The position numbers were made by a program, and so were the translations under genes. From a bacterium (GTDB lineage Bacteria > Zixibacteria > MSB-5A5 > WJJR01), in NCBI GenBank assembly GCA_035559435.1, contig DATMBC010000019.1:1-64000 (forward strand): 64,000 bases of DNA. The letters are read 5' to 3'. Positions within the stretch are counted from its first letter, which is position 1. The number at the start of each line of letters is the position of its first letter. Shown here piece after piece: positions 11,109 through 29,487 of this stretch. Below the pieces are notes generated by a model, which saw nothing but the letters and a program-made list of their open reading frames with translations, had not been told where the DNA came from and searched no databases.

Positions 11109-12587
11109 ATGAACCTTAACTTCGACTTCGCCAGCTTCTACGCCGACTGGGCGGTCATCCTGCCCGAGTGCTTCTTGTTTATCTGGGGCGCGTTGATCCT
11201 TGCCTGGGCGACCGGCAAGCGCGATGAGGCGCCGGGCGGGTCGGGTGTCTTTGCCATCGCCACACTGCTGGGCGTTTTAGCCACCGCGGTCTGGGTGGCG
11301 ATCACCCCCGACGGCGCCGCGTTTGGCGGGACCTTTGTCTTCGACCGCATGTCGGTGGTCTTCAAGGAGATTGTGCTCGGCGCGGTCCTGCTGGCGGTCA
11401 TTTCCTCGATCGGCACGGTGGGCCGTCTCCGCGCGCATCGCGGCGAATACTACGGCCTCATCCTGATGTCCGCCGTCGGCATGATGCTGATGGTCTCGGC
11501 CACCGAACTGCTGACGCTTTATGTCTCGCTCGAACTGTCGACCATCGTCCTCTATGCCCTGGCCGCCTTTGACAAGACCAACCGCCGCTCCGGCGAGGCG
11601 GGTCTGAAGTATGTAATCCTCGGCGGGATTTCGTCGGCGATCCTGCTGTATGGCATCGCGCTGCTTTATGGCCTCACGCAGAGCACCGATCTGCAGACGA
11701 TCAAGACGGCGGTCTGGGGGATGTACATGGATGGCCCCTTCCCGCCCGGGATGACGCTGGCGTTGATCTTCATTCTGGCGGGATTCGGCTTCAAGTTGGC
11801 GCTGGCGCCGTTCCACATGTGGGTGCCGGATGTGTACGAGGGCGCGCCGACGCCGATCACCGCCTATTTGTCGGTGGCCTCCAAGGCCGCGGCCCTGGCC
11901 GCCTTTGTGCGCGTCTTCTTTGTCGGGCTCGAATCGGCCGAGGGGATCTGGGGACATGCGATCGCCGCGCTGGCGGCGCTGGCGATGATCGTCGGCAACG
12001 TCACCGCGATCGTGCAGACCAACATCAAGCGCATGCTCGCCTACTCGTCGGTGGCGCAGATCGGCTATGTGATGGTCGGCGCGGTGGCGCTGGACGCCTA
12101 CGGCGCGACCGCCATGGCCTATTACATGCTCGCGTATCTGTTCACCAACATGGGCGCCTTCATCTGCGTGATCGCCTTCTCCGAGCGCACCGGCTCCGAC
12201 GAGATCATGGACTACTCCGGTCTGGCGCGCCGTTCGCCGATGCTGGCCGCCTTCTTCACGCTCTTCCTCATCTCTCTCACCGGGATTCCCCCAACCGCGG
12301 GCTTCCTGGCCAAGTACTATGTCTTCCTCGCCGGCATCAATGCCGGTTACATGTGGCTGGTGATCGTCGGCCTGCTCACGTCGGTCATCGCGCTGTACTA
12401 TTACGCGACGGTGATCCGCCGGATGTACTTTCCCTCCGATCTGGGCGACATGCCCTTCCCGGTCTCGCGCAGTCTGGTGACCGCGTTGACGATCGCGGCC
12501 TTGGGTGTTCTCTACTTCGGCATTTTCCCGGGCGCGTTTGTCGCGTTCGTGCAGGACGCCGCCCGTCAGTTGCTCGCCGCCTTGTAA
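11109..12587 (+). CDS. nuoN: NADH-quinone oxidoreductase subunit N
   Basis: NuoN is the third antiporter-like subunit, adjacent to NuoK in the assembled complex. The 492-residue protein has LLTLYVSLELSTIVLYALAAF with the conserved glutamate, APFHMWVPDVYEGAPTPITAYLSVASKAA with the lysine, and MLAYSSVAQIGYVMVG. It ends the seven-gene nuo cluster; the following genes are on the opposite strand. No nuoB, C, D, E, F, G or I homologue occurs anywhere in the window. Confidence 0.95.
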   Translation: MNLNFDFASFYADWAVILPECFLFIWGALILAWATGKRDEAPGGSGVFAIATLLGVLATAVWVAITPDGAAFGGTFVFDRMSVVFKEIVLGAVLLAVISSIGTVGRLRAHRGEYYGLILMSAVGMMLMVSATELLTLYVSLELSTIVLYALAAFDKTNRRSGEAGLKYVILGGISSAILLYGIALLYGLTQSTDLQTIKTAVWGMYMDGPFPPGMTLALIFILAGFGFKLALAPFHMWVPDVYEGAPTPITAYLSVASKAAALAAFVRVFFVGLESAEGIWGHAIAALAALAMIVGNVTAIVQTNIKRMLAYSSVAQIGYVMVGAVALDAYGATAMAYYMLAYLFTNMGAFICVIAFSERTGSDEIMDYSGLARRSPMLAAFFTLFLISLTGIPPTAGFLAKYYVFLAGINAGYMWLVIVGLLTSVIALYYYATVIRRMYFPSDLGDMPFPVSRSLVTALTIAALGVLYFGIFPGAFVAFVQDAARQLLAAL

Positions 12588-18496: not shown

Positions 18497-20542
18497 TCAA
18501 CGCGGACATTGATTGCCCGCCGCGCAGGGATCGCAGGGCGGCGGTCCGCCGCGGAAGGCGGCGTTGACGATCACCACCACATCCAGGACGCTGACCACGC
18601 AATCGCAGGTGTGGTCCAGGCGGCTGGTGTGCGGGCAGCATTCGGCGTCGGCGACATCGTTCCCGCCGCGAAATGCCACATTCACCGTCATCACCACATC
18701 GACCACCGACGGCACACCATCGCCGTTGGGATCGCCATGGGTTTTGCAGAGACAGCCGTCCAGCTGCCGTCGGTAGAAATTGATTCCACCGTCTTCCTCG
18801 CCGACAAACGCGTCGCGCAAGAGGTCGCCGTCAATGTCGGCGAAACACACCCGCAGCCGGTGGCCGTCGTCGTCCCACGGCAACGTGTCGGATTGCGCAA
18901 TCAAGGTCAGTGAGTCGGGGAATGTTCCCGATGGTGCGGTGTTGCGATACAGAACCGTGCCAAACGACCGTCCGCCGACCAGCAGGTCCCTGGACCCATC
19001 GCAGTCCCAATCGTAGACCACCGGCAGCGTGATGTCGCGCGGCTGGCGTTTGATCAGGCGGTTGGTGACCAGTGACAGCGCCGGAGAGCCCGGCGACCCG
19101 ACGTTTTCGTAGAGCAGGACATTCGCCGAACCGTTGAAGTCCCACTCGCCGACCACCAGGTCGGTCAGGCCATCGCCATCCCAATCCACCGGACAGACCG
19201 ACGCCTGCAAGTCGACCTGGATGCCTCCGAGTTGGCCGGTGACTTTCACCGGGGCGAAGTTGGCCGGTCCGCCGTCGTTGCGCCAGTACTCGATCGTGCC
19301 GGCTTCGTTGCCGATCAGCAGATCGAGGTCGCCATCGCTGTCCCAATCGACCAGCGCCGGCGCCGCGGTCAGACCGACATCGATGCCTTTGTAGAAATGG
19401 CCGGAGAGCAGGAAGCTGGGGCTGCCGGTTGAGCCGACATTCTCAAAGTGCGACAGACGTCCATCGCCGCGTCCGATCAATAAATCGAGATCGCCGTCGC
19501 CGTCCAGGTCCCCCGCCGCCGGAATGGCGTAGCTGCCGACATCGATGTTGGCAATCAGGTTGGAATCTTCGACGGCATAGACCGGCAACGTCGGTGTCCC
19601 GGTGTTGCGCAGGAGGAGGAGGTTGTTGAGGTCGTTGCCGTTGGCGGCGCCGACCAGCATATCGAGGTCACCGTCATCGTCCAGATCGGCAAACGCCGTG
19701 TGGTTGAGCCCGAAGGTGTTGACCGGCAGATACGCTTCGCTCTGCTCGGTCAAATCGGAGACCGATGCGGTCCCCAGGTTGGCGAACAGGTAGGCGTTGT
19801 TGTTGTTGATGTCGCCCCAGAACAAGTCCTGATCCCCGTCGGCGTCGTGGTCGGCAAAGGTGATCGTCGAAAAGCCATGCTGCGGCTCGGTCACCGACTG
19901 CGCCAGTGCCCCGGGGAAGGCGTAGACGCTGTCGTAGAAGAATGACCCCAGGACATACACCGGATCGGTCGAGTCGCCGTCGTTGCGGTACTGCCATAAC
20001 TCGCCGGTCACCGAACCGAGGAAGAAGTCGTAGTCGTTGTCGTTGTCGAGATCGGCGAAATCGCCAGTGTTGTTCAATCCGGTCTCGAAGTCGCCGAACA
20101 TATCCTTGACGAGTTCGAAAACGATGTTGCCGCCGCTGGAGAGGTTCTGGTAGTAGGCGGTCATCCCGTTGCCGGCGTCGCAGAACAAATCGAGATCGCC
20201 ATCGGCATCGATGTCGCAGAATCGGTGCCAGGTTCGGGTGTTGACGCCGCCGATCCGTTCGGTCACCGGCGTCCAGACGGGAACGGCTTCAGTCCCCGCG
20301 TTGCGCAGGTAGGCCACCTTGCCGCGGGTCTCACCGAGCATCAGGTCGGTGCGTCCGTCACCGTCGAAATCCACCAGCGACGGTTTCGGGCTGTTGACCC
20401 CGCCCCAGAACGGCAACGCCAGCGTATCCCCGCCGGCCACCACCGGCCAGGGGGCATACTCCTTTACAAAGCCCGCCCCCGACACCGGGATCGGGCGCAG
20501 GATTAGCAGCGAGGCAATGAGAGCAAGGATTCGTTGTCGCAT
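18497..20542 (-). CDS. Secreted FG-GAP/VCBS-repeat protein with dockerin-like C-terminus
   Basis: The 681-residue protein begins with a signal peptide (MRQRILALIASLLILRPIPVSG). It then carries about ten FG-GAP repeats, recognisable by calcium-binding cores such as DFDGDGRTDLMLGE, DLDDDGDLDMLVGA and DLDGDGDLDLLIGR, which form an extracellular beta-propeller. The last 80 residues hold two dockerin-like segments (DPNGDGVPSVVDVVMTVN and CDCVVSVLDVVVIVNAAFRGG). Such proteins are usually surface exposed or secreted; the partner or substrate is unknown. The ATG at 20542 was chosen because it opens the signal peptide, although the ribosome-binding site is weak. The frame is open upstream. Confidence 0.85.
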   Translation of the reverse strand: MRQRILALIASLLILRPIPVSGAGFVKEYAPWPVVAGGDTLALPFWGGVNSPKPSLVDFDGDGRTDLMLGETRGKVAYLRNAGTEAVPVWTPVTERIGGVNTRTWHRFCDIDADGDLDLFCDAGNGMTAYYQNLSSGGNIVFELVKDMFGDFETGLNNTGDFADLDNDNDYDFFLGSVTGELWQYRNDGDSTDPVYVLGSFFYDSVYAFPGALAQSVTEPQHGFSTITFADHDADGDQDLFWGDINNNNAYLFANLGTASVSDLTEQSEAYLPVNTFGLNHTAFADLDDDGDLDMLVGAANGNDLNNLLLLRNTGTPTLPVYAVEDSNLIANIDVGSYAIPAAGDLDGDGDLDLLIGRGDGRLSHFENVGSTGSPSFLLSGHFYKGIDVGLTAAPALVDWDSDGDLDLLIGNEAGTIEYWRNDGGPANFAPVKVTGQLGGIQVDLQASVCPVDWDGDGLTDLVVGEWDFNGSANVLLYENVGSPGSPALSLVTNRLIKRQPRDITLPVVYDWDCDGSRDLLVGGRSFGTVLYRNTAPSGTFPDSLTLIAQSDTLPWDDDGHRLRVCFADIDGDLLRDAFVGEEDGGINFYRRQLDGCLCKTHGDPNGDGVPSVVDVVMTVNVAFRGGNDVADAECCPHTSRLDHTCDCVVSVLDVVVIVNAAFRGGPPPCDPCAAGNQCPR

Positions 20543-20771
20543 GAGCAACCGCGCGGCGGGTACGCGCCGATAATCTAACGCTTTACTCCCGTATGTCAAT
20601 GTGCCCCAAACCGCCCCGGTCTTCCCTCTCCGGTAGTATCGGCGGCGCGTCCCGCCCATCCAGCGTGTTGGTGAAGCAGGAAACTTGGCCGCGAACCGCG
20701 CTTTTGACACACAAAAAAGTCATCCTCGTGTTCTGAGACTGTAGTTTTGTGGAACACTGGACGGAGAGGCC

Positions 20772-22103
20772 ATGGATTACCCCATCCTCGACACCGGCCC
20801 GCTGGGGCCCTCGACCTTGATCGCCGCCGTGGCGATCATCCATGTGCTGATCGCGCAGTTTGCCGTCGGCGCCGGCATCGCCACGCCGTGGCTGGAAGCG
20901 CGGGCGCTGCGGCGCAACGATTCGGTGCTGCTCAACTTCCTGTCCCGCTATGCCCGCTTCCTGATCCTGCTGTCGTTTGTCGGCGGCGCGGTCACCGGCG
21001 TCGGCATCTGGTTTGTCGTCGGGCTGATCTCGCCGGAGACTATCTCGCTTCTGTTGCGGCAGTTTGTCTGGGGTTGGGCGACCGAGTGGGTCTTCTTCCT
21101 GGTTGAGATCGTCTCCGGCTATGTCTACTACTTCTACTGGGGCCGGATGGACCCGAAGACGCATGTGAAGGTGGGCTGGGTCTATGCCGCCTCGGCATGG
21201 GGATCGCTTTTCATCATCAACGGCATCCTCACCTTCATGCTCACGCCCGGCGACTGGCTGGCCAACGGCTCCTTCTGGAGCGGGTGGCTCAACCCGACAT
21301 CGTGGCCGTCGCTGGTTCTGCGCACCATTTCCAGTCTCTCTCTGGCCGGGTTGTTCATCGCCGTGGTCGCCAATCTGCAGAAGGACATGACCGGCGAGGA
21401 CCGGCGCCACATCATCAATGAGGGGTCGGTCTTCCTCGTGCCGCTGGCGCTGATGATCCCGGTGTCGCTGTGGTACTTCGCCGCCGCTCCGGCCACATCG
21501 TCGCAACTGGTGGTCGGCGGCGCGGTGGCCATGTCGCTCTTTTTCGCCTTTGGCATCATCGCCTCCACGTTGATCGGCGTCTACGCCTATTGGGGCCTGC
21601 TGAAGAACAGACGCTCGGTGCATCTGGAAACCGCGCTTCTGCTCACCGGTATCGCGCTCATCGCCACCGGCTCGATGGAATATGTGCGCGAGGGCATCCG
21701 CAAACCGTACACGGTCTACCATTACCTCTACGCCAACGGTCTGACCACCGAGCGGATCGCCGCGATCAATCAGCATGGCTTTTTCGCCGCCCCGCCGGTG
21801 ATTGCGCAGGGGAAAAACCCCGACGCGCTCACCCCAATCGAGCGCGGCCGCATCATCTACGACGTCCAATGCCAGCGTTGCCATGCGGTCGACGGCTACA
21901 ACGCGATCCGTCCGCTGGTCGCTAACTGGACGGTCGAAATGATTCGCGACAACACGCGCCAACTGCACCGTCTGCGCGGGTACATGCCCCCCTTTGCCGG
22001 CACCGAGCGGGACCTCGAGGATCTGGTGGCTTTCCTCGCTTCGTTGCGATCCGACGAATGGGAGCAGATTCACCGCCCGCCGAATCCGGAGGGACAGCGA
22101 TGA
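20772..22103 (+). CDS. Cytochrome bd-like oxidase subunit I fused to cytochrome c
   Basis: The 443-residue protein has about nine membrane helices related to CydA, then a C-terminal cytochrome c domain (CQRCH at 367-371; Met405 in LRGYMPPFAG as probable axial ligand). His24 corresponds to the CydA heme b595 ligand, and Glu105 and Glu112 to the conserved acidic pair of the proton/heme region. The quinol loop GRQPW signature is absent. In the helix where CydA has the heme b558 histidine (FVHTVAAGYV) this protein reads LVLRTISSLSLAGLF. It therefore looks like the OR-C-type branch of the bd superfamily, fed by heme c. That assignment is inference. The gene overlaps its partner by ATGA. Confidence 0.7.
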   Translation: MDYPILDTGPLGPSTLIAAVAIIHVLIAQFAVGAGIATPWLEARALRRNDSVLLNFLSRYARFLILLSFVGGAVTGVGIWFVVGLISPETISLLLRQFVWGWATEWVFFLVEIVSGYVYYFYWGRMDPKTHVKVGWVYAASAWGSLFIINGILTFMLTPGDWLANGSFWSGWLNPTSWPSLVLRTISSLSLAGLFIAVVANLQKDMTGEDRRHIINEGSVFLVPLALMIPVSLWYFAAAPATSSQLVVGGAVAMSLFFAFGIIASTLIGVYAYWGLLKNRRSVHLETALLLTGIALIATGSMEYVREGIRKPYTVYHYLYANGLTTERIAAINQHGFFAAPPVIAQGKNPDALTPIERGRIIYDVQCQRCHAVDGYNAIRPLVANWTVEMIRDNTRQLHRLRGYMPPFAGTERDLEDLVAFLASLRSDEWEQIHRPPNPEGQR

Positions 22104-23104
22104 TCGGCGGACACGATCCGATGGCGATGCCGGCCCCGCCCCAGATGCTGTTGTTTCTCCTGGGATTGACCTTCGTGCTGCATCTGGCGATGCTCGGCCT
22201 CCTGTTCGCTTCGCTGTGGGCGCGCGCCGGCGCCGAATGGGGACGCGCGGCGGGTTATGACACCCAGCGCGTGCACCGCGCCGGCGTGGTCGGCATGTCG
22301 ATGACCATCACCATGGGTGTGCCGCCGCTGTTGTTCGTGCAGGTGCTTTACGGAAAACATTTCTACGCCTCTTCCATCAGCATTGGCTTCCCCTGGCTGG
22401 CAATTGTCGGCTACCTCCTAGTGGGCTTTTATGCGATGTACTGGGCGCAGTGGGCGTGGATGCGTCATCAGGGACCATCGTGGGCGGGCAAGTTGTCCTG
22501 GCTTCTGACCGTCCTGTGCGTGATCGCCATCGGCTTTACCTATTCATGGAATCATCTGAAGTCGCTGTCGGCGACGCCCTGGACCAATGTTGTCTTCCAC
22601 CCCGATGCGCTGCTGCGTTTGAGCGGCTACTTCGGCGCCGCGTCGATCGGCTCGGCCGCCTGGGCCTCATGGGTGGGAGGCAATTGGCGCGTCGATCACC
22701 GTCTGCCGCGCGGGACCGGAATCGCGGCGTTGGTCGGCGGCGCGGGGCTTCTGATCTGGACGCTGATTTCCGACTACGCGTCATCCGGCACCACTGTCGT
22801 CGATCGTCCCCTGCAAATGATCGCGGCGCTCACTTCACTGTTGGCCGGCGCGTTGGTGCTGGCCAACCGCGGCGGAGGCCTGACCCGCTGGCTGCTGACC
22901 ATCGCGGCGCCGCTGGGCATGCTCGGTCTATTGGTTCAGCGCGAGACCTGGCGTCTGGCCGCCCTCGGACCCCTCCACTCTCCGTTTGCCGAAACCGTGC
23001 GCACGCAATGGAGCGCGGTGGCCCTCTTTGCCGCGACCTTCATCGTCGGCCTCGGCGTGCTGCTCTGGCTGGTCCTGCAGATTCGCCGCCTGCGGACGCG
23101 ATAG
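22100..23104 (+). CDS. Polytopic membrane partner of the bd-like oxidase subunit
   Basis: The 334-residue protein has about eight hydrophobic segments and no soluble domain. Its ATG overlaps the stop of the cytochrome-c-fused bd-like subunit (ATGA) and is preceded by GGAGG, so the two are almost certainly made together. His residues lie at or near helices (FVLHLAMLGLLFASLW, YDTQRVHRAGVVGMSM, FTYSWNHLKSLS) and could bind heme or metal, but no CydB signature is recognisable. It may replace CydB as second subunit. Function is inferred from position only. Confidence 0.55.
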   Translation: MIGGHDPMAMPAPPQMLLFLLGLTFVLHLAMLGLLFASLWARAGAEWGRAAGYDTQRVHRAGVVGMSMTITMGVPPLLFVQVLYGKHFYASSISIGFPWLAIVGYLLVGFYAMYWAQWAWMRHQGPSWAGKLSWLLTVLCVIAIGFTYSWNHLKSLSATPWTNVVFHPDALLRLSGYFGAASIGSAAWASWVGGNWRVDHRLPRGTGIAALVGGAGLLIWTLISDYASSGTTVVDRPLQMIAALTSLLAGALVLANRGGGLTRWLLTIAAPLGMLGLLVQRETWRLAALGPLHSPFAETVRTQWSAVALFAATFIVGLGVLLWLVLQIRRLRTR

Positions 23105-26872: not shown

Positions 26873-27574
26873 GTGGAAGTTAAATTGTCGCCGACGCTGC
26901 GAGGGTACGTGACGGCCATCTATAAGCTGCAGCGGAAGACCGGCTGGGCCTCGACTGGTGAAGTCGCCCGCCATCTCGGCGTGACCGACGCGGCCGTCAC
27001 CCAAATGGTGCGGCGCATGGGACACAGCCACCTGGTGCGTCATCGCGCCTACCGCGGCGTCTGCCTGACCGAAAAAGGTCAGCGGATTGCCATTGAAATG
27101 ATCCGTCACCACCGCCTGTTGGAAACCTTCTTCTACAAGATCGTCGGGATGCCCTGGGACCAGGTCCACGCCGAAGCGGAGCGGCTGCAGGCCTACATCT
27201 CGCCGGAATTGGAAAGCCGCATCGATGCCCTGCTGGGCTTTCCGCAGTTTGATCCGCATGGCAGCCCGATTCCCTCGGCCGACGGCGTCATGCCCGAGGT
27301 GACCTACCACCCGTTGCATGACGTGGCGGCGGTCGGGGAGCGGTTCATCTTCGCCCGCGTCTCGGACCTCGACCCGCGTTTGTTGCGCTACCTCGATTCA
27401 CTGCCGCTTAAACTGGGCACGGAGCTGACGGTCGAGGAGATGATGCCGTTTGACGGGCCGATCACGGTCTCCGACGGCGCGCGTCGCTTCGCGCTCAGCC
27501 GCGAAGTGGCGCGGCACTTGTTTGTCGTCAACGCCAAACCCGAGCCGGCCGCGGCGCCCACATCGACCGCGTGA
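26873..27574 (+). CDS. DtxR/MntR-family metal-dependent transcriptional regulator
   Basis: The 233-residue protein has the DtxR order: winged helix (about 1-62, with GEVARHLGVTDAAVTQMVRRM), a metal-binding dimerisation domain (about 63-140, with HHRLLETFF and later acidic and His residues), and a C-terminal FeoA/SH3-like domain (about 150-225). Such proteins repress metal uptake or activate efflux when bound to Fe(II) or Mn(II). GTG at 26873 is used because AAAGGA precedes it and the nearby ATG is followed by a stop. Its stop overlaps the start of the P-type ATPase gene (GTGA), so it probably regulates that exporter. The 240-bp upstream gap is AT-rich and has a TTATAAT box. Confidence 0.9.
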   Translation: MEVKLSPTLRGYVTAIYKLQRKTGWASTGEVARHLGVTDAAVTQMVRRMGHSHLVRHRAYRGVCLTEKGQRIAIEMIRHHRLLETFFYKIVGMPWDQVHAEAERLQAYISPELESRIDALLGFPQFDPHGSPIPSADGVMPEVTYHPLHDVAAVGERFIFARVSDLDPRLLRYLDSLPLKLGTELTVEEMMPFDGPITVSDGARRFALSREVARHLFVVNAKPEPAAAPTSTA

Positions 27575-29487
27575 CCGTCATGGCGACCCGCGCAACATCG
27601 CTGCGCCAACTGTGGACGCGGCACCATCTGGTCTTCTGGACCGCGCTGGGCGGCGCGCTCATCCTCTCGGGGTGGATGGTCGAGGACGCCGGCCGGCGCG
27701 ATCTGGGGCATGTGCTGTTTGCGCTGGGCTACCTGGCCGGGGGCTGGATGGCGGCCAAGGAGAGTTTCGATGGCCTGCGCGAGTACCGTCTCGACGTCAA
27801 CCTGCTGATGACGCTGGCGGCGGTCGGAGCGGCCATCATCGGACGCTGGGCCGAAGGCGGCACGCTGATCTTCCTGTTCTCCCTGTCCAACACCCTGGAG
27901 CATTACGCCCTCGAGCGGACCAAGGACGCGGTGCGTTCGCTGATGGACCTGCGGCCGGCAGAAGCGCGGCTGTGGCGCGACGGCGCCACACGCCAGGTGC
28001 CGGTCGAAGACCTGGAAGTTGGCGATCTGATCCTGGTCAAGCCCGGCGAGAAGATCCCCGCCGACGGCACGATCGTCGAAGGACGCACCTCACTGGACCG
28101 TTCGACCTTCACCGGCGAATCGCTGCCGGTCGATGCGGACATCGATGACACCGTTCTGGCCGGCTCGCTGAACCTCACCGGACAGATCAAGGTCCGTGTG
28201 AGCGCGCGCGCCGCCGACACCGCGCTGGCCGCGATTATCCACCGTGTCGAACAGGCGCAGTCGGGACGGGTCCCGACCAATTCATTCGTGCAGTGGTTCG
28301 GCCAACGCTACACCATCGGTGTCCTGGCGGGAGCGCTGCTGCTGACGCTGGTCACCGCGGCGGTCTCGGATTTGAGTTGGCGGGCCAACCTCTATCGGTC
28401 TTTGACGCTTCTGGTGGTGGCGTCGCCCTGCGCGCTGATCATCAGCACTCCGGCGGCGGTGCTGTCGGCGATCGGACGCGCAGCCCGCAAGGGCGTGTTG
28501 TTCAAGGGGGGCGCGCACCTGCTCAACCTGGGGAGCATTCGGGCGGTCGCCTTTGACAAGACCGGCACGCTGACCCAGGGACGCGCGGTGGTCACCGATG
28601 TCATCCCGCTTAATGGCACCACTTCGGGGGTGCTGGTCACGTTGGCGGCTTCTATAGAGGCCGGTTCGACTCATCCGCTGGCGCAGGCCATCGTCAATGC
28701 CGCCCACCAGGAGGGGCTGGTAATCCCGCCGGTCGACAATGCCGAATCGCTGGCCGGTCTGGGCGCCATCGGCGTGGTGCGGCTCAACGGTACACCGCAA
28801 CGAGTCCTGGTCGGCAATCGACGGCTCTTGGTAGCCAATGAGTTGGCGCCCGATGAACAGGCCGAAGCCGAGATGCTACGGTTGGAAGAAAACGGCAAGA
28901 CCGCCATCCTGGTGGCGACCAATCGGGTTCTGGGGATCATCGCGTTGGCCGACATCCCACGGCCGACCTCGGAGGCGATCGCCCGGCAATTACATGAGAC
29001 CGGCGTGGAGTCGGTCGGTATCCTCACCGGCGACAACCACCGTGTCGCTATGGCGATGGCCCAACGACTCGGCATCGATGAGGTGCGGGCGGAGCTGATG
29101 CCCGCCGAGAAAGCAGACGCCGTCGCCGGATTGCTCGCCAGTCACCGCACAGTCGCCGTTGTCGGCGATGGAGTTAACGATGCGCCCGCGCTGGCGACCG
29201 CCACGGTCGGCATCGCCATGGGCGGGGCGAAAAATGATGTCGTGCTTGAATCCGCCGATGTGGTGTTGATGGGCGATGATCTCTCACGCCTTCCCTTTGC
29301 GATTCGACTCTCAAAGAGCACCAAGCGTGTGATCATCCAGAACCTGACTTTCGCCTTGATCGTCATCACCGCACTCCTGACTGGCACTCTCCTGGGCCAG
29401 ATCCCGCTGACTCTGGGCGTTGTGGGCCACGAAGGCTCGACGCTGCTGGTGGTGCTCAACAGTCTGCGGCTTTTGTGGTACGAGTGA
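27571..29487 (+). CDS. P1B-type metal-exporting ATPase, P1B-4-like
   Basis: The 638-residue pump has all P-type landmarks: FTGESLPVD, the membrane SPC motif in VASPCALIIS, the phosphorylation site DKTGTLTQG, GILTGDNHR and VGDGVNDAPALA. There is no N-terminal heavy-metal-associated domain. The last membrane region reads GVVGHEGSTLLVVLNSLRLL. SPC plus HEG(G/S)T and a missing N-terminal domain are the P1B-4 pattern, a group exporting Co(II), Fe(II) or related ions, unlike the Zn/Cd P1B-2 group. Coupling to a DtxR-type regulator fits Fe or Mn/Co detoxification. An ATG at 27580 is an alternative start. Confidence 0.9.
   Translation: MTVMATRATSLRQLWTRHHLVFWTALGGALILSGWMVEDAGRRDLGHVLFALGYLAGGWMAAKESFDGLREYRLDVNLLMTLAAVGAAIIGRWAEGGTLIFLFSLSNTLEHYALERTKDAVRSLMDLRPAEARLWRDGATRQVPVEDLEVGDLILVKPGEKIPADGTIVEGRTSLDRSTFTGESLPVDADIDDTVLAGSLNLTGQIKVRVSARAADTALAAIIHRVEQAQSGRVPTNSFVQWFGQRYTIGVLAGALLLTLVTAAVSDLSWRANLYRSLTLLVVASPCALIISTPAAVLSAIGRAARKGVLFKGGAHLLNLGSIRAVAFDKTGTLTQGRAVVTDVIPLNGTTSGVLVTLAASIEAGSTHPLAQAIVNAAHQEGLVIPPVDNAESLAGLGAIGVVRLNGTPQRVLVGNRRLLVANELAPDEQAEAEMLRLEENGKTAILVATNRVLGIIALADIPRPTSEAIARQLHETGVESVGILTGDNHRVAMAMAQRLGIDEVRAELMPAEKADAVAGLLASHRTVAVVGDGVNDAPALATATVGIAMGGAKNDVVLESADVVLMGDDLSRLPFAIRLSKSTKRVIIQNLTFALIVITALLTGTLLGQIPLTLGVVGHEGSTLLVVLNSLRLLWYE

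Follow-up and report, generated by a model that had tools for sequence, protein, structure and literature searches.

The locus analysed here lies at positions 20,772 to 23,104 of the window, by which is meant the whole 64,000-nucleotide stretch of contig DATMBC010000019.1 from a Zixibacteria genome (3.0 Mb, 106 contigs). It consists of two genes on the forward strand, ORF1 and ORF2, which, judged from sequence comparisons and structural models, probably encode a two-subunit O2 reductase fed by cytochrome c, a member of the cytochrome bd superfamily of the OR-C kind. ORF1 is a CydA-like protein with a cytochrome c domain at its C-terminus (a form called CydA-c below), and ORF2 is its partner, which by profile comparison is a CydA paralogue (CydA') and not CydB. 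Both open reading frames lie where the original prediction had placed them, overlapping in the ATGA at 22100-22103. An alternative in-frame ATG at 22058 would extend ORF2 to 348 residues; close relatives begin, by eye, near 22100.

Conservation is counted in two sets of relatives. The first comes from genomes of the same phylum and holds 42 CydA-c and 39 partner sequences, 26 and 24 of which make up alignments A1 and A2, respectively. The second comes from named genomes, for which all results refer to the best 80 of at least 521 relatives (the named loci). Alignment A3 (n = 72) joins ORF1 of the window to 71 of the 79 CydA-c of these loci, the cut sequence of L125 having already been dropped from the 80, and with L114, L122, L130, L135, L137, L141, L143 and L149 omitted as very long or cut. 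Alignment A4 (n = 70) joins ORF2 to 69 of the 73 partners found, leaving aside L084, L086 and L148, which are short, and L117, which has unreadable residues. The features of the pair are as follows.

20772..22103, + strand: ORF1, 443 residues, CydA-like subunit ending in a cytochrome c domain
20841..20843, + strand: His24, equivalent of the active-site heme ligand His19 of E. coli CydA; 42 of 42 in the phylum set, invariant in A3
21084..21107, + strand: Glu105 and Glu112, which correspond to Glu99 and Glu107 of E. coli CydA; both invariant in A3
21318..21323, + strand: Leu183-Arg184, which take the place of the heme b558 ligand His186; Arg184 does not vary in A3
21690..21710, + strand: Glu307-Gly-Ile-Arg310-Lys-Pro312-Tyr, counterpart of E445-YGRQPW; an active-site motif, not a Q-loop motif
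21822..22064, + strand: cytochrome c domain, residues 351-431; PF13442 at 33.7 bits, fold like cytochrome c6
21870..21884, + strand: CQRCH heme c attachment motif with the proximal ligand His371; Cys367, Cys370 and His371 invariant in A3
21984..21986, + strand: Met405, predicted distal heme c ligand; invariant in A3
22100..23104, + strand: ORF2, CydA' partner subunit, 334 residues, nine long helices taken as transmembrane
22181..22183, + strand: His28 of the partner, a candidate heme ligand that aligns with ORF1 His24 and with His19 of E. coli CydA; 39 of 39 in the phylum set, 70 of 70 in A4
22940..22954, + strand: Arg281-Glu282-Thr-Trp-Arg285 of the partner, aligned to ORF1 Arg306-Glu307-Gly-Ile-Arg310 in the profile alignment

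ORF1 matches both the CydA family (PF01654, 47.1 bits) and the cytochrome c family (PF13442) over the curated Pfam cut-offs. The AlphaFold model (pLDDT 92.6, pTM 0.90) has eight long helices, taken as transmembrane, followed by the heme c domain at the point where ordinary CydA has a ninth helix. Ten CydA chains superpose on the model with Z-scores of 29.3-32.4, among them 7ose_A (rmsd 2.8 Å over 316 residues, 16% identity); chains of alternative complex III come next, at Z 17.4-18.8. Residues 351-431 superpose on cytochromes c6 and c in VIA-align with Z 6.1-6.9 and rmsd 3.0-3.2 Å, which is below the caution line of Z 8 but agrees with the Pfam match. The N-terminus is predicted to be outside and the C-terminal domain periplasmic, where c-type heme is attached, because the predicted inside loops hold 11 Lys and Arg and the outside loops 5, and because the heme c domain comes after helix 8.

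The ligands and the quinol site were compared by aligning ORF1 (MAFFT) with E. coli CydA (NC_000913.3) and with nine ordinary CydA from the phylum of the window. In the E. coli enzyme, Glu445 and Glu99 are axial ligands of hemes b595 and d, and His186 and Met393 are those of heme b558 (PMC6853902). The alignment pairs His24 of ORF1 with His19, Glu105 with Glu99, Glu112 with Glu107, His131 with His126, Ser145 with Ser140 and, further along, Glu307 with Glu445, Arg310 with Arg448 and Pro312 with Pro450. Glu105 is present in all 42 sequences of the phylum set and Glu112 in 40 of them, and in A3 His24, Glu105, Glu112, Arg184, Glu303, Arg306, Glu307, Arg310 and Pro312 are invariant, as are Cys367, Cys370, His371 and Met405 in the c domain. 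This bears out the original prediction that the His and the acidic pair are kept and that a CQRCH heme c site with Met405 is fused on. No His occupies the His186 column in ORF1, which is filled by Leu183 (MAFFT) or Arg184 (profile alignment), again as had been proposed from the sequence, and no Met occupies the Met393 column, where MAFFT places Glu286. The columns of the Q-loop residues Lys252 and Glu257 fall in a gap. One earlier argument failed: the absence of a GRQPW quinol motif had been counted as evidence, but in E. coli CydA this motif begins one residue after Glu445, outside the Q-loop, and its counterpart is kept in ORF1 as Ile309-Arg-Lys-Pro-Tyr313 (IRKPY), with Glu307, Arg310 and Pro312. 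The remaining evidence that the quinol site is missing is unaffected. By alignment, then, ORF1 is a CydA relative without the quinol site and the b558 ligands and with the active-site ligand set, and it is predicted to bind heme there.

The second gene had been described as a polytopic protein without CydB signature, which holds as far as it goes: the protein lacks that signature because it is a CydA paralogue, as profile comparison indicates. ORF2 has no match in Pfam or NCBIfam, and a Pfam search of the 70 partners in A4 gave twelve unrelated families, each matched by one or two members, with a best E-value of 0.0013. When the profile of the 72 CydA-c was compared with that of the 70 partners, however, they matched with a probability of 98.4% (E 5.8e-15 over 282 columns). 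The partner profile matched ordinary CydA at 72% (E 3.4e-5) and CydB at 0.7%; as yardsticks, CydA-c against ordinary CydA gave 97.7% and ordinary CydA against CydB 0.8%, so that CydB is remote from all the CydA profiles compared. The search of the window's own genome with the partner profile also matched ORF1, at 40.8 bits. The model of ORF2 (pLDDT 85.5) fits CydA (Z 23.1) and CydB (Z about 22) alike, and because the fold does not tell them apart, the decision between them rests on the profile comparison. ORF2 has no CxxCH motif, and its helix 3 (residues 96-123) has no Glu or Asp and therefore no counterpart of Glu99 and Glu107. The phylum has a second, paralogous operon (L203-L205) whose CydA' partner also carries a heme c motif, CAACH, as would be expected if CydA' derives from a c-fused CydA; a later gain is possible.

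Homologues of ORF1 (E-value of 0.001 or better) were found in 62 of 132 Zixibacteria genomes, a count that includes genomes with only a more distant paralogue or the solo type described below (for example G017 and G050). G025, a genome of the window's own class, has its copy at 11251-12516 of a 31,058-base contig. The single-protein search of the named genomes with ORF1 gave no matches; the scan with the A1 profile gave the relatives mentioned above among at least 589 matched stretches. Planctomycetota, Acidobacteria, Armatimonadetes, Ignavibacteria, lineages of Desulfobacterota and a Nitrospirae genome are among the sources of the best 80. Seventy-four of the 80 named loci and 18 of 20 phylum loci have a CydA' gene on the strand of CydA-c; in 6 of the 74 it is upstream. 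It is within 700 bases of CydA-c in 70 of the 80 and further off in L100, L103, L119 and L150; in L100 and L103 a second CydA-c intervenes, giving a three-gene version with two tandem CydA-c genes and then CydA'. No partner was found in L101, L108, L111, L125, L137 and L143, where the DNA ends less than 500 bases 3' of the match (L101, L108, L125 and L143) or runs on for 1.3 kb there (L111), or where flanks of 3.7 and 4.1 kb gave no partner match (L137, of the octaheme type). The two phylum exceptions, L050 and L051, lack a partner with flanks of more than 8 kb in either direction; the partner search of the genomes concerned, G017 and G050, gave no match. Since the two-gene arrangement is conserved across phyla, chance can be excluded as its origin. 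Only two groups of neighbours recur in at least five of the best 80 named loci, response-regulator-like genes (19 loci, by eye) and one CxxCH-bearing group (5 loci), so the neighbourhood names no electron donor.

A tree was built in one FastTree run from 228 sequences and 313 columns and rooted at the midpoint. In this tree 95 of 97 CydA-c, including ORF1 of the window, form a clade with three further sequences (0.957), apart from the clade of 31 ordinary CydA (1.0), which agrees with the original expectation that the protein would not be placed among ordinary bd quinol oxidases. Ninety-four partners (1.0) and three Nitrospirae paralogues (0.998) form clades of their own, and CydA-c and ordinary CydA join at 0.999. 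ORF1 fits OR-C by its features, namely the CydA-like core, the missing Q-loop and the fused c domain, as seen in its sequence, this being a likeness in features and not a formal assignment.

The gene content of the pair's own genome is compatible with a cytochrome c-fed oxidase. Two NrfD-like proteins are encoded, one of them on contig C43 less than 6 kb from c domains and a heme-copper oxidase, and PF13442 has five further matches in four frames. The only other PF01654 match in this genome (G000:C49) was rejected, being a cytochrome c assembly protein (PF01578) that adjoins CcmE, CcmB and an ABC protein. With Ccm genes and NrfD-like proteins present, a chain from quinol through cytochrome c to an oxidase is plausible.

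For the enzyme itself, a periplasmic c-type cytochrome would reduce the fused heme c, which would pass electrons directly to the heme b595-like site on the Glu307 side and from there to the heme that binds O2, the protons coming from the cytoplasm; the second active-site heme may be d or b. In the organism, electrons would run from quinol through an alternative complex III-like complex and cytochrome c to the ORF1/ORF2 enzyme, beside the heme-copper oxidases. The earlier proposal of a c-type donor in place of quinol is thus supported by the alignments, which brought out neither a Q-loop nor b558 ligands.

Whether O2 is the substrate can be judged in part from the other oxidases in the same genomes. 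A heme-copper oxidase over the cut-off occurs in 45 of the 62 ORF1-positive phylum genomes and an ordinary CydA in 16, and 12 show neither (the ORF1 search covered 132 genomes and the searches for the other oxidases 129 each); of these 12, G117 has a 61-position fragment of ordinary CydA (80.5 bits), and G047, G080 and G089 may lie outside the 129. Three nearly complete genomes, G066 (100%), G110 (97%) and G087 (96%), which belong to the 12 and were covered by both oxidase searches, have the CydA-c and CydA' pair, no PF00115 match over the cut-off and, as their sole PF01654 match, the ORF1 homologue. O2 reduction is favoured, although unproven, because these three have the pair and no other recognised O2 reductase. 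A bd-like complex with another reaction, be it reduction of NO, peroxide or another small molecule or the passing of electrons between the quinone pool and cytochrome c, is an unlikely alternative: an alternative complex III-like role was considered for a related bd-like protein of nitrite oxidisers (PMC3578206), and the 45 genomes with a heme-copper oxidase would fit it. It is less easily reconciled with those three genomes, which lack another O2 reductase recognised by PF00115 or PF01654, with the absence of the tested Q-loop residues, or with the retention of the equivalents of His19, Glu99, Glu107, Glu445 and Arg448, all invariant in A3. It seems very improbable that misalignment has hidden a Q-loop and b558 ligands and that the pair is in truth an ordinary, quinol-oxidising cytochrome bd. 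While the PF01654 match over the cut-off and the strong CydA fold match would suit such an enzyme, helices 6 and 7 of the model are joined by just 13 residues, which form one short helix; both alignments put Leu183 or Arg184 at the His186 position; and the partner is not CydB (0.7%) and ORF1 groups away from ordinary CydA. Nothing beyond sequence divergence speaks for a decaying remnant of an oxidase, and this is hardly credible given that both frames are open, that ORF1 is 68-76% and ORF2 49-53% identical to the four copies from the same family of genomes, and that different phyla share the gene order and the catalytic residues.

Several points nevertheless weigh against a cytochrome c-dependent O2 reductase of the OR-C kind. 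Without b558, the distance that electrons must cover from heme c to the active site may be long, and the literature surveyed holds no biochemical evidence for any OR-C member, in line with the earlier remark that such members are without biochemical proof. With a heme-copper oxidase in the own genome and in those 45 of 62, the pair need not be the main oxidase, and when other oxidases are called absent from G066, G087 and G110, this means no more than that these draft genomes gave no PF00115 and no further PF01654 match. The assignment to OR-C is by features and not by published profiles. In the tree, which is a single midpoint-rooted run, the node adding the Nitrospirae proteins to CydA-c and ordinary CydA has a support of 0.09, and the c-fused outliers L050 and L051 group weakly (0.714) with ordinary CydA.

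A suggestion can be made for what takes the place of heme b558. His28 of the partner aligns with the active-site His19 of E. coli CydA, which is a positive hint on the earlier question of whether a His of the partner could face a heme. At the other part of the candidate site, Arg281 is conserved in 68 of the 70 partners, Arg285 in 69, and 62 have Asp, His or Glu as residue 282. It is conceivable, though less likely than not, that CydA' is more than a silent stand-in for CydB and binds a heme b of its own through the invariant His28 with residue 282 and Arg285. The complex would then be a heterodimer of CydA paralogues whose hemes are a heme c, two in the active site and one in the partner, the last serving as a relocated relay or electron-storage heme replacing b558. 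A further candidate, an invariant Arg at the start of partner helix 5, was set aside: Arg173 of the window aligns to ORF1 Arg184 in the profile alignment and is kept in 38 of 39 sequences of the phylum alignment, but the conserved Arg of A4 (67 of 70) lies four residues earlier, opposite Asp169.

Other architectures were seen among the relatives. An octaheme CydA-c with eight CxxCH motifs, and with CydA' upstream, occurs in Desulfobulbales and other relatives (L245-L251 and L260; L122, L130, L135 and L141); in L245-L251 and L260 it has 847-889 residues. Cultured bacteria with the pair include Desulfuromusa kysingii DSM 7343 (L135, with the octaheme form) and Desulfopila sp. IMCC35008 (L151). 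Among Desulfobulbales, 161 of 257 genomes match the A3 profile at an E-value of 0.001 or better, weak matches included. Solo CydA-c genes were found in L257:6761-8047 (G215), L258:6051-7775 (G219) and L259:6031-7311 (G214), and also at L050 and L051 in the phylum of the window. In L257-L259 Glu105 and Glu307 are kept, positions 112 and 145 are Leu and Ala, and the b558 position is occupied by His. Across the 13 genomes G207-G219 no CydA' was found, four matches to A4 (G210, G214, G215 and G217) falling on CydA-c itself, and CydB was found in none of the 13. The Nitrospirae isolate J031 (G132; L192-L194) has four CydA-superfamily matches of 57-77 bits, three of them large proteins of 583, 630 and 647 residues and one a CydA-c.

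Within the window, the pair stands beside a divergent gene for an FG-GAP repeat protein (18497-20710, − strand), whose C-terminal repeats are dockerin-like by eye. Further downstream, at 26873-29487, a DtxR-type iron-dependent repressor with a FeoA domain is followed directly by a P-type ATPase gene.

If the proposed function is true, the bd active site would have a further source of electrons, cytochrome c; the solved bd structures among the fold matches, from E. coli, Geobacillus, mycobacteria and Corynebacterium, are known as quinol oxidases. Such an enzyme would also mean that more genomes of presumed anaerobes have aerobic capacity than are now counted. Because the partner is invisible to Pfam, the pair may be annotated as CydA without CydB and counted as an incomplete oxidase. 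Cable bacteria are an active case of such CydA-only annotation: closed genomes and other metagenome-assembled genomes are reported to lack a complete bd oxidase and to have CydA homologues only (PMC10030654).

Compared with known systems, the pair is closest to canonical bd (CydAB, qOR; E. coli bd-I) in its core, with a fold match of Z about 30 and the equivalents of His19, Glu99, Glu107, His126, Ser140, Glu445 and Arg448, and differs from it in having no Q-loop and no b558 ligands, a c domain instead of the ninth helix and CydA' instead of CydB. The cable-bacteria CydA homologue (CydAh) shares with ORF1 a periplasmic cytochrome c domain, noted for one such homologue (PMC13047784), and has been proposed as one O2-reduction candidate. 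In contrast to the pair, it is reported as a CydA homologue without complete bd oxidase (PMC10030654); a CydBSA is mentioned for some Electrothrix species (PMC12093952). A tentative comparison is with the solo branch L257-L259, which has neither CydA' nor CydB. The OR-N bd-like oxidases (CydAA' of Nitrospira and Nitrospina) likewise have no quinol site and a proposed cytochrome c donor, and a pairing of two CydA paralogues has been proposed for them (PMC10839748). However, the three Nitrospirae CydA-superfamily proteins, which are possibly OR-N although not typed by profile, form a separate clade, and two that were aligned lack the Glu99 and Glu445 equivalents at the aligned columns. OR-C itself, reportedly defined as a family of the cytochrome bd superfamily by Murali, Gennis and Hemp in 2021, has a cytochrome c domain on CydA as its definition. 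The branch is already known from sequence surveys, the family being named in four reports (PMC13189123, PMC10839748, PMC11707229, PMC8509429), one of which states that OR-C profiles exist (PMC11707229). In the literature surveyed, which did not include the defining 2021 paper, there is no OR-C biochemistry and no account of a CydA' partner. The identity of the partner and the candidate heme site are what is contributed here, and may or may not be new relative to that paper. In its CydA-like core without quinol site, its fused cytochrome c and its predicted c-type donor, ORF1 is like OR-C.

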